This document shows, in pieces, positions 1,383-7,062 of a stretch of DNA of 64,000 nucleotides (position 1 is its first letter; each line of letters begins with the position of its first letter). The position numbers were made by a program, and so were the translations under genes. Source of the DNA: Truepera sp. Its GTDB lineage: Bacteria > Deinococcota > Deinococci > Deinococcales > Trueperaceae. Where the stretch lies: NCBI GenBank assembly GCA_032027045.1, contig JAVSMU010000001.1:2568620-2632619 (forward strand), in the 5' to 3' direction. A model generated the notes under the pieces. It saw only the letters and a program-made list of their open reading frames with translations, did not search any database and was not told the origin of the DNA.

Positions 1383-2480
1383 GTGCCTATGAGGTGGTTG
1401 AGGCGGGGCCTGCCCGTCGCCTTTCTCGCGCCGTTGCTGGCCAGTTGTTCGCTGCAGGGCGAGCAGTCGACTTTCAGCCCTATCGGCAGCATCGCCCAGG
1501 ACCAGCTGGACCTGTTCATGTGGACCTGGTACCTGAGCATCCCCGTGATGGTCGGCGTGTTCGGGGCCCTGATCTACGCCGTCTTCAAGTTCAGGCGGCG
1601 CAAGGACGACAAGCTCCCGGTGCAGTCACACGGCAATCCCATAGTGGAACTGATCCTCGTCATCGTGCCCGTCATCATCATCGTCTTGGTAGCCATCCCG
1701 ACCATCCGCTCCGTCTTCCGCACGCAGTCTCACGTGGTGGCGACGGCCGACGACGTGGTGGTCAACGTGGTCGGGCATCAGTGGTGGTGGAGCTTCGAGT
1801 ACCCCGAGCTCGGCATCACCACGGCCAACGAGTTGCATATCCCAGCCGGCAAGCGCGTTATCTTGCACCTCAATTCGGCGGACGTCGTTCACGCCTTCTG
1901 GGCCCCGCGCCTGGCCGGTAAGGTCGACCTCATCCCCAATCAAGACAATCAGCTCTGGTTCGACACCAACGAGGACAGCGTGGGCATCTACTCGGGCCAG
2001 TGCGCCGAGCTCTGCCTCGGCGCCCACGCGTACATGCGCTTCCGAGTGGTCGTATCCGAGCAGTCGGACTACGAGGCCTGGGTGGCGAAGTTCCAGAAGC
2101 CCGCGATCCAGACCGTGGCGTCGGACCCACTCGTGACCCAGGGCCGCCAGCTCGTGGCCGCCAAGGGCTGCATCGGTTGCCACAACATCGGCAACTACAC
2201 CGAGGGCATGAGGTACGGTCAGCCCCTCTACCCCGACCTCACCAACTTCGGCCTGCGCAACACTGTCGGAGCGGGTGTTCTGGACGCCACGCCCGAGAAC
2301 GTCGCGGCCTGGATAGCCGACCCGCAGTCGGTCAAGCCGGGCAACCGGATGCCGACCTTGTGGGAAGCAAACGACCCGAATCGCGACCAGGAGACGGCCG
2401 CCATCGCCGCCTTCTTGTTGAGCCTAGGTGTGAATGACAGCAATCAGGCGCTCGCTCGAGCGTCAAGCGGAGGCAACTGA
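1383..2480 (+). CDS. ctaC: Cytochrome c oxidase subunit II with fused cytochrome c (caa3 type)
   Basis: Electron-entry subunit of a haem-copper oxidase, 365 residues. An N-terminal lipoprotein-like signal (LLASC) is followed by two membrane helices, a cupredoxin domain with the CuA ligand loop SGQCAELCLGAHAYM (Cys207, Cys211, His215, Met218), and a C-terminal cytochrome c domain with the haem motif CIGCH at 263-267 and a likely Met ligand in GNRMPTLW. The fused cytochrome c defines a caa3-type subunit II. GTG at 1383 is chosen because a strong Shine-Dalgarno (gaggaggga) ends 5 nt upstream; ATG at 1389 is an alternative. The stop overlaps the ctaD start (TGATG). First gene of a four-gene oxidase operon. 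Confidence 0.95.
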   Translation: MPMRWLRRGLPVAFLAPLLASCSLQGEQSTFSPIGSIAQDQLDLFMWTWYLSIPVMVGVFGALIYAVFKFRRRKDDKLPVQSHGNPIVELILVIVPVIIIVLVAIPTIRSVFRTQSHVVATADDVVVNVVGHQWWWSFEYPELGITTANELHIPAGKRVILHLNSADVVHAFWAPRLAGKVDLIPNQDNQLWFDTNEDSVGIYSGQCAELCLGAHAYMRFRVVVSEQSDYEAWVAKFQKPAIQTVASDPLVTQGRQLVAAKGCIGCHNIGNYTEGMRYGQPLYPDLTNFGLRNTVGAGVLDATPENVAAWIADPQSVKPGNRMPTLWEANDPNRDQETAAIAAFLLSLGVNDSNQALARASSGGN

Positions 2481-4375
2481 TGGCCACCACTCAGCCCACA
2501 ATCACCAGTTCCACCCGTGGGAAGCTCTTCGTCCGTCCGACCTGGACCACCGGCATCGGCTCCTGGCTGACGACGGTCGATCACAAGCGCCTCGGCATCC
2601 TCTACATGCTCACGTCGTTCACCTTCATGGCGGCGGCGGCGACCGAGGCGTTCATCATGCGCCTGCAGTTGCTCACGCCGAACATGAGCGTGGTCAACCC
2701 GGAGCAGTTCAACCAGCTCTTCACCATGCACGGCGTGACGATGGTGTTCCTCTCCATCATGCCGCTCGGCATCGGCATCGCCAACTACTTCGTGCCGTTG
2801 CAGATCGGCGCTCGCGACCTCGCCTTCCCGCGCTTGAACGCGTTCGGCTACTGGGTCTACCTGTTCGGTGGCCTGATGATCTACTCGTCTTGGTTCTTGG
2901 GTGGCGCGCCCGACATGGGCTGGGTGGCTTACGCCCCACTCACCTCGCTGTCGCACAACCCGGGCCTCAACGTCGACTTCTACATGTTCGGCCTGTTCAT
3001 CAGCGGCGTAGGCACGACGGCCACCGCCATGAACCTCATCGTGACGATGGTGAACATGCGCGCTCCGGGCATGACCATGATGCGCATGCCGGTCTTCGCC
3101 TGGATGATGCTCATCACGTCGTTCATGATCATCTTCGCCTTCCCACCGCTCACCATCGCGTTCCTCGAGATCATCCTCGATCGCACCTTCGGCACGCTCT
3201 TCTTCGTGCAAGAGGCCGGCGCCCTGCCGATCTTGTGGCAACACCTCTTCTGGATCTTCGGCCACCCGGAGGTGTACATCATCATCTTGCCGGCCTTCGG
3301 GGTGATCAGCGAGATCATCCCGACCTTCTCGCGCAAGCCGATCTTCGGTTACCCGATCATGATCCTGTCGGGCATCCTCATCGGGTTCATGGGCTTCGCG
3401 GTCTGGACGCACCACATGTTCACCACGGGACTCGGCCCCGTCGTCAACACGGCATTCTCGCTCACGTCGTTCATCATCGGCATTCCAACGGGCGTCAAGA
3501 TCTTCAACTGGCTGGGAACCCTGTGGGGCGGCAGTATCAGGTTCACGACGTCACTGCTGTACGCGCTGGCCTTCCTCGTCACTTTCACGCTCGGGGGCAT
3601 CACGGGCATCATGGTCGCCATGCCCACTTTCGACGCGCAGGTGCACGACACCTACTTCGTGGTGGCGCACTTCCACTACGTGATGGGCGGTGGGGCCCTC
3701 TTGGCCTTCTTCGGGGCGCTGTACTACTGGTTCCCGAAGATCACGGGCAAGATGATGGACGAGAAGCTGGGCAAGGTCGCTTGGGTGTTCACCGTCATCG
3801 GCTTCCACCTCATCTTCTTCCCACAGCACTTGGCGGGGCTGATGGGCATGCCGCGCCGCATCCAGACTTACCCCGAGGGCATCGGGCTGGAGCTCGTGAA
3901 CATGCTCTCCACCATCGGTAGCTGGGTGATGGGCGTGGGCCTCATCCTCATCTTCTACGGCGTAATCCACGCGCTGGTCCGCGGCAAGCCCGCCGGCAAG
4001 GACCCGTGGGACGCACGGACGCTCGAGTGGACGACCGAATCGCCACCCGCCTACTACGGCTTCAAGACGCAGCCGGTGGTCAACTCGCTCGACGCGTTCT
4101 GGGCGGAGAAGTATCCGGAATCCATGCACGTGACGCCCCCCGATCCCGCCGAGGGCAGGGCCTACGACGCGGCGGGCGTCCACATCCCCGGCCAGTCCTG
4201 GTTCCCGATCCTGGGCGCGCTGGCACTCGCCGTGGGCTGCTACGGACTGATGTACGACAACATGGTCCTAGCCGTCATCTGCGGCCTGTCGTTCATCTTC
4301 ACCATCTTCGCCTGGGCCTTCGAGGGCGTCGGCGGCACGCACCTTCACTTCGACGTTGCGGAGGAGCACGTATGA
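2480..4375 (+). CDS. ctaD: Cytochrome c oxidase subunit I
   Basis: Catalytic haem-copper subunit, 631 residues, with about a dozen or more membrane segments. It reduces O2 to water at the haem a3/CuB site while pumping protons. Visible: GHPEVY (His262, Glu264, Tyr266) carrying the CuB ligand His, the D-channel Glu and the cross-linked Tyr of A-type oxidases; the CuB pair THH (about 311-312); and the haem ligand pair HFH (about 397-399). The start ATG overlaps the ctaC stop, and the stop overlaps ctaE (ATGA), so translation is coupled through the operon. The C-terminus after about residue 480 carries extra membrane segments and a loop, longer than the minimal mitochondrial type. Confidence 0.97.
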   Translation: MATTQPTITSSTRGKLFVRPTWTTGIGSWLTTVDHKRLGILYMLTSFTFMAAAATEAFIMRLQLLTPNMSVVNPEQFNQLFTMHGVTMVFLSIMPLGIGIANYFVPLQIGARDLAFPRLNAFGYWVYLFGGLMIYSSWFLGGAPDMGWVAYAPLTSLSHNPGLNVDFYMFGLFISGVGTTATAMNLIVTMVNMRAPGMTMMRMPVFAWMMLITSFMIIFAFPPLTIAFLEIILDRTFGTLFFVQEAGALPILWQHLFWIFGHPEVYIIILPAFGVISEIIPTFSRKPIFGYPIMILSGILIGFMGFAVWTHHMFTTGLGPVVNTAFSLTSFIIGIPTGVKIFNWLGTLWGGSIRFTTSLLYALAFLVTFTLGGITGIMVAMPTFDAQVHDTYFVVAHFHYVMGGGALLAFFGALYYWFPKITGKMMDEKLGKVAWVFTVIGFHLIFFPQHLAGLMGMPRRIQTYPEGIGLELVNMLSTIGSWVMGVGLILIFYGVIHALVRGKPAGKDPWDARTLEWTTESPPAYYGFKTQPVVNSLDAFWAEKYPESMHVTPPDPAEGRAYDAAGVHIPGQSWFPILGALALAVGCYGLMYDNMVLAVICGLSFIFTIFAWAFEGVGGTHLHFDVAEEHV

Positions 4376-4989
4376 GCGCCGACGCTTCCCACGCCAGCCC
4401 GGCCCCGGCCCACGTGGCGCCCTACCGTTCGAGCAAGTTGCCCGACGTCAAGCTGTTGATGTGGGTGTTCCTCGCGTCCGACACCATGTTCTTCGGGTCG
4501 CTCATCGGCACCTACCTCGCCTATCACAACCGCAGCCTCGTCGGCCCACTGCCGCGCGACGTCTTCGACATCCCGCTAACGACGATCAGCACCTTCGTCC
4601 TGCTCATGTCGAGCCTGCTCATGGTGCTCAGCTTGCACGCGCTGCGCCAGAATGACATAAGCAGGTTCCGCCTCTGGACCGCAGGGGTCGCCATCTTCGG
4701 CTCGATCTTCCTGGGCTTCCAGGTCTTCGAGTTCACGCACTTCGTGAATGCCGGCCTTACCGTCCACCAGAACCTGTTCGGGACCACCTTCTTCATCCTC
4801 ACGGGCACCCACGGCATTCACGTGACCGTCGGCGTCATCTGGCTGGTCAGCGCGCTCATAACCTCGTACCTGCGTCCGACCACCGCCAAGGACGCGGTCT
4901 ACCTCGAGATCGCCGGTCTCTACTGGCACTTCGTCGACATCGTGTGGATCGTGATCTTCACGGTCGTCTACCTCGTAGAATTCGTGTAG
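4372..4989 (+). CDS. ctaE: Cytochrome c oxidase subunit III
   Basis: Membrane subunit III of the same oxidase, 205 residues with five predicted membrane helices after a short Ala/Pro-rich N-terminus. Characteristic segments are LLMWVFLASDTMFFGS near residue 27, LTGTHGIHVTVG near 145 and GLYWHFVDIVWIVIF near 185. ATG at 4372 overlaps the ctaD stop (ATGA); longer upstream extensions in this frame only run through ctaD. Subunit III stabilises the catalytic core and proton uptake in this family. The next gene begins 16 bp downstream. Confidence 0.95.
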   Translation: MSADASHASPAPAHVAPYRSSKLPDVKLLMWVFLASDTMFFGSLIGTYLAYHNRSLVGPLPRDVFDIPLTTISTFVLLMSSLLMVLSLHALRQNDISRFRLWTAGVAIFGSIFLGFQVFEFTHFVNAGLTVHQNLFGTTFFILTGTHGIHVTVGVIWLVSALITSYLRPTTAKDAVYLEIAGLYWHFVDIVWIVIFTVVYLVEFV

Positions 4990-5005: not shown

Positions 5006-6085
5006 ATGGCTGAAACGAAACACTCCTCCGTCACCACCTACCTGATCGTCGCCATCATCCTGGGCGTCATCACCTACATCGAGTTCGCGCTCGTCGAGTA
5101 CCCGCAGGCCTGGCTGGGCCCCAGCTGGACCCTGGTCTGGCTGATCACCCTGTCCGTGGTCAAGTTCGTGATGGTCGTCATGTTCTTCATGCACCTCAAG
5201 GCCGACGATCGCACCTACACGGGCTTCTTCTCGAGCGGCATGTTCATCGCCATGGCCACGTTCGTCGGATTGACGGCGATGTTCGTCCTGCCGCGCGCGG
5301 TCTCGGCCACCCGACCGCAGAACGTCGTGGCTGGGAAGGCCGCGCACAACGAGATCCCGGAGGCGATGCTCGAGAACGTGCGGACGGGCGGCGCCTCGCG
5401 TGGGCCGGCCCAGATCGCCGACAACCCTCGCGTGAAGGACCGCACCGTCCCGATCGCCGCGCCGCTGGCAAGTAACGACGCCTCGACCTACACGGTGAAC
5501 GTCGCGACGCCGCCGGCAGCGGAGGAGGCGGGCGCGACCCCGAGTACCGCCGAAGCGCCGTCGGGCGCGGGGGAGGCCGCGTCCGCGACCACGCCGACGA
5601 CGGAGGCACCGTCGGGTGAAGCACCGTCCGGCGAGGCAGCGTCCGGCGCACCGGCCGGAGCCGCACCCGCGGCCACGACCGTCAGCTGGGACCAGGAACA
5701 CGGTAAGGCGGTCTTCAACGCGAACTGCATGGCCTGCCACCAGGCGTCGGGCGAGGGCATCCCGGGAGCGTTCCCGCCCCTGGCCGGTCACTCAGACGAC
5801 ATCTACGCCCTGGACGGCGGCCGCCAGTACCTCCTCGACACGGTACTGTTCGGCCTGCAGGGCCCCATCACAGTGAACGGCGCCCCCTACAACGGCGTCA
5901 TGCCCGCGTGGGGCCACCTTGCCGACGGCGACATCGCAGACGCCCTCAACCATGCCCTCACGGCCTGGTCCGACCCGCCCGCCGACTTCCAGCCCTACGT
6001 GGCCGCCGACGTCGAGGCCCGCCGCCCGGACAACCGCACCCCGGACGAGAATCACGCTGCTCGCGAGGCCCTCGGCCTGGATTGA
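5006..6085 (+). CDS. Cytochrome c oxidase subunit IV fused to a cytochrome c domain
   Basis: A 359-residue fusion. Residues 1-100 are a prokaryotic subunit IV (COX4/CtaF type) with three hydrophobic helices, including the signature VKFVMVVMFFMHLK. Residues about 105-225 form an Ala/Pro/Glu/Ser-rich, repetitive linker with APSGEA-like units. Residues about 230-330 are a class I cytochrome c with haem motif CMACH (241-245) and likely Met299 ligand in NGVMPAWGH. Prokaryotic subunit IV is usually only about 100 residues. It is the last gene of the ctaCDE operon and is followed by an intrinsic terminator. With the cytochrome c on subunit II, the enzyme may carry two tethered haem c groups (inference). 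Domain calls are firm; function of the extra domain is not. Confidence 0.88.
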   Translation: MAETKHSSVTTYLIVAIILGVITYIEFALVEYPQAWLGPSWTLVWLITLSVVKFVMVVMFFMHLKADDRTYTGFFSSGMFIAMATFVGLTAMFVLPRAVSATRPQNVVAGKAAHNEIPEAMLENVRTGGASRGPAQIADNPRVKDRTVPIAAPLASNDASTYTVNVATPPAAEEAGATPSTAEAPSGAGEAASATTPTTEAPSGEAPSGEAASGAPAGAAPAATTVSWDQEHGKAVFNANCMACHQASGEGIPGAFPPLAGHSDDIYALDGGRQYLLDTVLFGLQGPITVNGAPYNGVMPAWGHLADGDIADALNHALTAWSDPPADFQPYVAADVEARRPDNRTPDENHAAREALGLD

Positions 6086-6255: not shown

Positions 6256-7062
6256 ATGCTCTATCTGAACTGGCAGTTGGAACCCGTGCTCCTAGGGATG
6301 ATCGCCGCCTCCGCGACGGCCTACTACTTGGCGGTCGGCCCGCTCAGAAGGCGCATCGCGCCGGGAGAGCCTTACCCGACCAAGCACGCCATCGTGTTCG
6401 GAATCGGGTTGCTCGCGCTGTTCCTCAACGAGGGATCGCCCCTTCACGACCTGGCCGAGCGCTACCTCCTGTCGGCGCACATGGCGCAACACCTCATCCT
6501 CACCTACGCCATCGCGCCCATCCTGCTGGCCGGCACGCCCGCATGGTTGCTCAGGGCCACGTTGGCCAACCGCCGCATGCTGCCCATCATGCGCGTGGTG
6601 CTGAACCCGCTAATGACGTTCGTGGTGTTCTCACTGGCGCTTGCCGTGTACCACCTGCCCGCGTTCTACGACCTATCCATCTCCAACACCTCGCTGCACC
6701 ACTCGGTCCACATCATCCTGCTGTTCGCATCGCTCATGGTGTGGTGGCCCATCATGAGCCCGATCGAGGAGCTCCCGCGCCCTGCGTTCATCGTGCGGGC
6801 GGCCTACCTGTTCCTGTTGCCGGTGGCGCAGCTGCCGATCTTCGCCGGCATCACGTTCTCACCCGACGCTCTTTACTCCGCTTACGCCCACCTGCCCGTG
6901 CGCGCCTTCGGCATCTCGGTGCTCGACGACCAGCAGTTGGCGGGCGCCCTGATGAAGGTATCGGGCATAGTGGCCTTCGGCATCCCGTTCGTCGTCACGT
7001 TCTTGCAGTGGTTCATCAGCGAGGACAAGGAGCACCGCTGGCGCGCGGGCACGCGTCCCTGA
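6256..7062 (+). CDS. ctaG: CtaG-like cytochrome c oxidase assembly factor (caa3_CtaG family)
   Basis: Polytopic membrane protein of 268 residues with about seven hydrophobic segments. Family-typical stretches are HMAQHLILTYAIAPIL (near 79-94), LHHSVHIILLFASLMVWWPI (near 150) and the C-terminal DQQLAGALMKVSG. The caa3_CtaG family is required for assembly or activity of caa3 oxidase and is distinct from the Cox11-type CtaG. Its place directly after the ctaCDE cluster agrees with that. ATG at 6256 follows a gggaagga-like ribosome site (6238-6245). The stop TGA overlaps the ATG of the HAD gene (TGATG). Its own promoter must lie between the terminator at 6187 and 6256. Confidence 0.87.
   Translation: MLYLNWQLEPVLLGMIAASATAYYLAVGPLRRRIAPGEPYPTKHAIVFGIGLLALFLNEGSPLHDLAERYLLSAHMAQHLILTYAIAPILLAGTPAWLLRATLANRRMLPIMRVVLNPLMTFVVFSLALAVYHLPAFYDLSISNTSLHHSVHIILLFASLMVWWPIMSPIEELPRPAFIVRAAYLFLLPVAQLPIFAGITFSPDALYSAYAHLPVRAFGISVLDDQQLAGALMKVSGIVAFGIPFVVTFLQWFISEDKEHRWRAGTRP

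Follow-up and report, generated by a model that had tools for sequence, protein, structure and literature searches.

The closest described relatives of the locus studied here are the caa3-type (A-type) oxidases, in which subunit II carries a CuA site and a fused cytochrome c. Subunit IV is an accessory subunit, and we know of no redox role for it. Three other systems are relevant to a carrier attached to its partner. Cytochrome c552 of Thermus, a free secreted protein, is described in the available text of PMC3561395 as the physiological substrate or donor of two oxidases, ba3 and caa3. In Rhodobacter capsulatus, CcoP was engineered to carry the 69-residue linker and the domain of cytochrome cy, and according to the accessible part of PMC7876108 this protein gave QH2:O2 activity without added carrier. 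Finally, the three-domain copper nitrite reductases (2zoo, 3ziy) have a c domain fused to the acceptor enzyme.

The pairing of COX4 with a cytochrome domain is already in print, as a table row. Table A3, in the portion of PMC8756737 available to us, gives the ORFs PKB63614.1 and PIQ26724.1 as 'COX IV' plus a cytochrome C1-domain; they are listed as matches of a nitrite reductase domain search and, by table label, have the same domain pair as the Truepera fusion reported below. Elsewhere, the accessible text of the open literature searched holds no mention of a subunit IV-cytochrome fusion, which is weak evidence of absence as subscription papers lay outside its scope; the parts of PMC8239418 and PMC9145763 that we had make no mention of one either. 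The COX1-COX4 fusions reported in the available text of PMC4013037 are different from it.

The window, meaning the whole stretch of 64,000 nucleotides that was analysed, comes from a Truepera genome assembled as a single contig of 2,919,400 bases. It contains an oxidase operon in the order subunit II, subunit I, subunit III, fusion gene and CtaG, with the following features (window coordinates).

1383..2480, + strand: subunit II, with a CuA motif (2001-2036) and its own cytochrome c (CIGCH, 2169-2183, residues 263-267)
2480..4375, + strand: subunit I, haem-copper oxidase, above the TIGR02891 cut-off
4372..4989, + strand: subunit III, by Pfam
5006..5296, + strand: subunit IV part of the fusion (COX4_pro, PF03626), residues 1-97, three helices, MHLK at 62-65
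5297..5677, + strand: linker, residues 98-224, rich in Ala/Pro/Thr/Gly/Glu/Ser, predicted disordered
5390..5470, + strand: semi-conserved stretch of the linker, residues 129-155
5678..6085, + strand: domain of cytochrome c552 type, residues 225-359, complete and with the C-terminal extension of Thermus c552
5726..5740, + strand: haem c attachment motif CMACH, residues 241-245
5900..5902, + strand: predicted axial Met299, by sequence alignment
6256..7062, + strand: CtaG, caa3 assembly factor, by Pfam

The operon order, the CuA site and the cytochrome on subunit II all resemble those of caa3-type oxidases. The CuA motif of subunit II is complete (CAELCLGAHAYM) and, with the cytochrome c, fits an A-type caa3 enzyme; LASC (1437-1448) in the same protein resembles a lipobox. 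Subunit I scores 699.1 bits against TIGR02891 (cut-off 670.75), placing it in the CtaD/CoxA family, and contains HHMF, VHDTY, HFHYV and GHPEV, which we take to be its haem and CuB ligand motifs. Residues 13-85 of the fourth gene product match the prokaryotic COX4 family (PF03626, E 2.3e-10, 41.2 bits against a cut-off of 28.9). On these matches, this product is best read as the subunit IV of a caa3 enzyme of the A type. It differs from the known caa3 enzymes in that its subunit IV bears a second, c552-type cytochrome and falls below the cut-off of the narrower model TIGR02229 (24.1 versus 37.25 bits). Because subunit II has a CIGCH of its own beside the cytochrome of the fusion, the oxidase would hold two cytochromes c. 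The original prediction had noted the cytochrome c of subunit II and proposed two tethered carriers per oxidase. The first point is confirmed by the CIGCH, and the second is supported and general in the family: subunit II has its own cytochrome c at 14/14 Deinococcales loci with the subunit II core on the contig, all drawn from the best 80 of 384 relatives in a scan of genome contigs with subunit IV patterns.

The fusion frame (5006-6085) encodes 359 residues and is open throughout, with no internal stop. Its cytochrome c match begins at residue 231 (Pfam, E 6.6e-8). The haem-binding CMACH and Met299 named in the original prediction were both located, and C241, C244, H245 and M299 are invariant in 23/23 aligned fusions (the window protein and 22 parsed relatives). 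Across its whole length, C-terminal extension included, the domain aligns with Thermus thermophilus cytochrome c552 (PDB sequences, E 1.1e-34), and Foldseek returned the same protein, 1c52, as the best match of the modelled domain (E 1.1e-9, TM 0.83 by target length, 47% identity), so that sequence and fold agree along with the CxxCH and the Met. The c domains of the copper nitrite reductases 2zoo and 3ziy were weaker matches in both searches; there too a related c domain is fused to an acceptor enzyme, whereas the Truepera fusion is part of a respiratory oxidase. For the subunit IV part, PDB sequences gave nothing up to E 0.1. A CcoP-like origin of the cytochrome was considered and rejected, as TIGR00782 scores 30.4 against 179.95 bits while Thermus c552 matches full length. 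Unlike Thermus c552, the Truepera domain is not a free secreted protein but shares a single reading frame with the three predicted helices and the linker that precede it. Given the role described for Thermus c552, the kind of cytochrome that naturally feeds a caa3 enzyme would in Truepera be joined to it.

Hydrophobic stretches at residues 12-30, 43-61 and 77-95 are followed by the hydrophilic linker, and AlphaFold2 (13 sequences used) places helices at 9-31, 39-65 and 68-99. The model is modest overall (mean pLDDT 64.9, pTM 0.40): residues 98-224 are mostly below pLDDT 50, and the C-terminal domain is largely confident, residues 246-255 excepted. By the positive-inside rule, basic residues stay on the inner side of the membrane. 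In the fusion protein they occupy the N-terminus and the second loop, so the subunit IV part is predicted to be N-in; the C-terminus would then face the periplasm, the compartment in which haem c is added to proteins.

We then asked how widely the fusion occurs within Trueperaceae. PF03626 matched in 31/39 family genomes (32 matches), and 31 of the 32 loci, the window's own included, were parsed; the one left out is an 88-residue frame, too short for a cytochrome, from G012, which has a fused copy elsewhere in the genome. At 28/31 parsed loci one or more full c552 domains follow subunit IV. The remaining three are two loci at a contig end (L070, L075) and one in which a run of N precedes a c552 frame (L077). 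A second single-contig genome of the family (G017, 3,260,398 bp) carries the fusion, in a protein of 464 residues prior to any processing. Among the 28 family members the linker measures 79-286 residues (median 123). Against three relatives, pN was 0.07-0.13 for COX4, 0.14-0.27 for the cytochrome and 0.27-0.34 for the linker, with pS at 0.36-0.66 in all parts; at nonsynonymous sites, therefore, the linker has diverged more than the subunit IV and cytochrome parts. Subunit IV, linker and complete cytochrome c domain, as originally predicted, are thus borne out by the Pfam matches, the open frame and the family survey, and a search for the domain pair in other genomes, suggested at the outset as a check, found it family-wide and in a few metagenome-assembled genomes outside the family, described below. 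The relationship to Thermus c552, the spread through the family, the members with two copies and the other carriers that further lineages attach at this position go beyond that prediction.

In the rest of the respiratory chain, PF00033 (cytochrome b) had no match in the Truepera genome, with eight control genomes positive; cytochrome b was found in 4/39 family genomes. The genome contains an Alternative Complex III (ACIII) operon encoding a multihaem ActA-like protein, an iron-sulfur ActB-like protein, NrfD (ActC), ActD, a monohaem ActE-like protein and an ActF-like protein. Only NrfD and ActD are named by Pfam, and ActA, B, E and F are assigned by position and motif. After the ActF-like gene comes a seventh (G000:C1:1704.4-1705.2 kb, L037:8443-9240, outside the window), which encodes an anchored c552 of 265 residues: a single hydrophobic segment at the N-terminus is followed by a linker and then by the c552 domain. 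ActD is present in 36/39 family genomes and, among the matches listed, a c552 domain lies 1.9-2.5 kb downstream of it on the same strand in at least 14 of these 36. Together with the caa3 fusion, this spacing suggests that the ACIII-to-caa3 step tends to have a membrane-anchored c552 at both ends.

Further c552-type domains were seen in this genome and its relatives. Outside the window, at G000:C1:2499.8-2502.9 kb (L036:5854-8870), a second cluster for a haem-copper oxidase consists of a short subunit II (PF00116), COX1 and a 313-residue protein in which several hydrophobic segments precede a C-terminal c552; it is another oxidase of this genome with a fused c552. In a cbb3-like cluster (G000:C1, about 2829-2832 kb), a long linker in a FixO-containing frame of 692 residues (L039:7968-10043) leads to a second domain, which is c552-like, and a c552-like protein of 337 residues follows (L039:10200-11210); both frames stand beside COX1. 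A secreted-looking protein with a weak Ig-like match also ends in a c552 domain (L038:8461-9411, G000:C1, about 1185.5-1186.4 kb). In three family genomes, a short subunit II fused to c552 lies beside COX1 (L041:8807-9751, L042:4716-5684, L043:8522-9469); in the two scanned with Pfam, the ba3-type model PF09125 is over its cut-off in G013 (L025/L041) and just under it in L043. Other families of the order have stand-alone c552 frames with a signal-like N-terminus, and in one such family two nearly identical tandem c552 domains follow an N-terminal hydrophobic segment, without subunit IV (L204, G039:C5:27600-29300).

We propose that, in this A-type caa3 oxidase, the fusion is probably a subunit IV to which a c552 is covalently tethered, and that this c552 shuttles electrons from ACIII to subunit II. 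Its three transmembrane helices would anchor it in the oxidase with the C-terminus in the periplasm; the flexible linker of ~125 residues would let the cytochrome swing between ACIII, or the anchored c552 of the ACIII operon, and subunit II; and the domain would hand electrons to the cytochrome c/CuA of subunit II. In this way the oxidase would receive electrons with no need for a freely diffusing carrier. The domain identities, haem ligands, linker, operon, family-wide conservation and distribution of ActD are read from the sequences themselves; from them we infer the topology, the loading with haem, the direction of electron flow, the partners and a rate advantage. The arrangement resembles membrane-anchored cytochrome cy and the engineered CcoP-cy of R. 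capsulatus, in which, in the accessible part of PMC7876108, the carrier sits on a long linker and in the engineered form is C-terminal to an oxidase subunit. In contrast to CcoP-cy, the Truepera fusion is natural, involves another oxidase class, another subunit and another cytochrome, and would work with ACIII instead of bc1. Some observations weigh against this reading. As described in the available text of PMC8552683, ACIII of F. johnsoniae feeds an aa3 oxidase without ActE, so an extra haem domain need not lie on the main path; since subunit II already has a cytochrome c, the second one may be dispensable. A diffusible carrier may also operate alongside the tethered c552: the genome encodes other monohaem cytochromes c, one of them with an apparent signal peptide (L173), and for this reason we do not claim a genome without diffusible cytochrome.

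The presence of two haem domains per oxidase would also fit a second entry port, the two-donor alternative of the original prediction. The c552 domain would then have a donor of its own, such as a dehydrogenase or a soluble cytochrome, distinct from the one that supplies the subunit II cytochrome, and one oxidase would serve two donors. The many other cytochrome c genes of the genome (17 PF00034 matches) favour this, as does Thermus c552, which also takes electrons from c550/sulfite oxidoreductase according to the available part of PMC3561395. We nevertheless consider such a port rather unlikely, because no candidate donor gene was seen in the oxidase operon and ActD is present in most of the family genomes that have the fusion.

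At three family loci (L065, L066, L071) two c552 domains stand behind subunit IV, and all keep CxxCH and Met, the ligand-site Met of the second domain in L071 lying in YTGLM. In a tree of 62 domains the copies of L071 group together, while the L065 and L066 copies fall into two distinct pairs, a pattern that requires at least two duplications. Holding all 31 COX4-linked domains together was not rejected (AU p 0.609; the held tree was 3.88 log units better, in a quick tree) and deep branches of the tree are weak, so neither one nor several origins are proven; independent origins of the family's COX4-c552 are not shown. The separate duplications and the ligands kept in every copy would fit a role of the extra haem as an electron capacitor, storing an electron near CuA for faster O2 reduction at low donor supply, with tandem copies adding capacity. 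A linker of 79-286 residues fits shuttling better than storage, however, and the domain belongs to a known mobile donor type, which makes a capacitor decidedly unlikely.

To follow the fusion beyond the family, we considered the rest of Deinococcota and more distant relatives. PF03626 occurs in 42/111 Deinococcota genomes, 11 of them outside Trueperaceae, nine above the curated cut-off (frames of about 100-273 residues, 115-273 as listed) and two below it (frames of 345 and 431). Because none of the five outside-family loci read, of these 11 (L187-L190, L210), contains CxxCH, the fusion is probably confined within Deinococcota to Trueperaceae. Among the best 80 of the 384 relatives, 17 belong to Deinococcales/Trueperaceae (L086-L102), and 16 of these have a c552 domain in the subunit IV frame (L097 is cut by a contig end; in L100 a run of N lies between). 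Four of the other 63 have an extra C-terminal redox domain. In three it is a cytochrome c, namely L116 and L120 of the Dehalococcoidia and L152, whose record gives Cyanobacteria UBA7694; the fourth, L117, has a domain resembling plastocyanin and azurin (PF00127, E 7.5e-9). Subunit II also has a cytochrome c in 4/4 of these loci. In the phylum of L116, where 208/400 sampled genomes matched the subunit IV search, 30 loci were fetched; 22 have a subunit IV frame by our profile and two are fused (L249, which is L116, and L252), suggesting that the fusion is rare there. In the small phylum of L117 all three genomes have an attached carrier: in L279 (L117 itself) and L280, which are 92% identical, it is a cupredoxin, and in L281 it is a cytochrome c. 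The L117 cupredoxin keeps the pattern C-x4-H-x3-M, which we take to be typical of type 1 copper. That different carriers can occupy one position is the strongest reason to think that what is attached there functions in carrying electrons. ActD occurs in 3/4 of the outside genomes; the genome of L117 has no ActD match, which counts against the tethered-shuttle reading. Viral contigs gave 53 pattern matches, none confirmed. Tentatively, and with rather less conviction than for the shuttle itself, we suggest that subunit IV could be a reusable socket for carriers tethered to its periplasmic C-terminus (c552, other cytochromes c, a plastocyanin-like copper protein), separately acquired and mostly found with ACIII, and that in Trueperaceae the ACIII-to-caa3 step could have tethered c552 at both ends, with no diffusible carrier.

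The exchange of domains also bears on the possibility that the domain, or part of the linker, is mainly a docking arm that holds the oxidase to ACIII in a supercomplex, the haem being incidental. The linker is otherwise variable (A 31, P 14, T 12, G 11, E 10, S 9 of 120 residues), but residues 129-155 follow a family consensus of about SR..A...D.PRPKD.......P.A, with P153 in 22/23 sequences, and this PRPKD-like stretch possibly contacts the oxidase. ACIII-aa3 and ACIII-caa3 supercomplexes are reported in the available text of PMC8552683. Even so, a mere docking role is very unlikely: the haem ligands are invariant in all 23 fusions, and the replacements of the domain elsewhere are unrelated carriers, all of them redox proteins. 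An assembly error or frameshift, named beforehand among the things that would overturn the prediction, is ruled out for practical purposes by the single-contig genome, the fusion at 28 of 31 family loci and the purifying substitution pattern on either side of the linker.

The tethered shuttle, which we regard as the probable reading, would give subunit IV a concrete redox role across a whole bacterial family. Trueperaceae would then offer natural versions of the engineered tethered-carrier supercomplex, and the exchange between cytochrome and cupredoxin within one small phylum would make the idea of a tethered donor directly testable.
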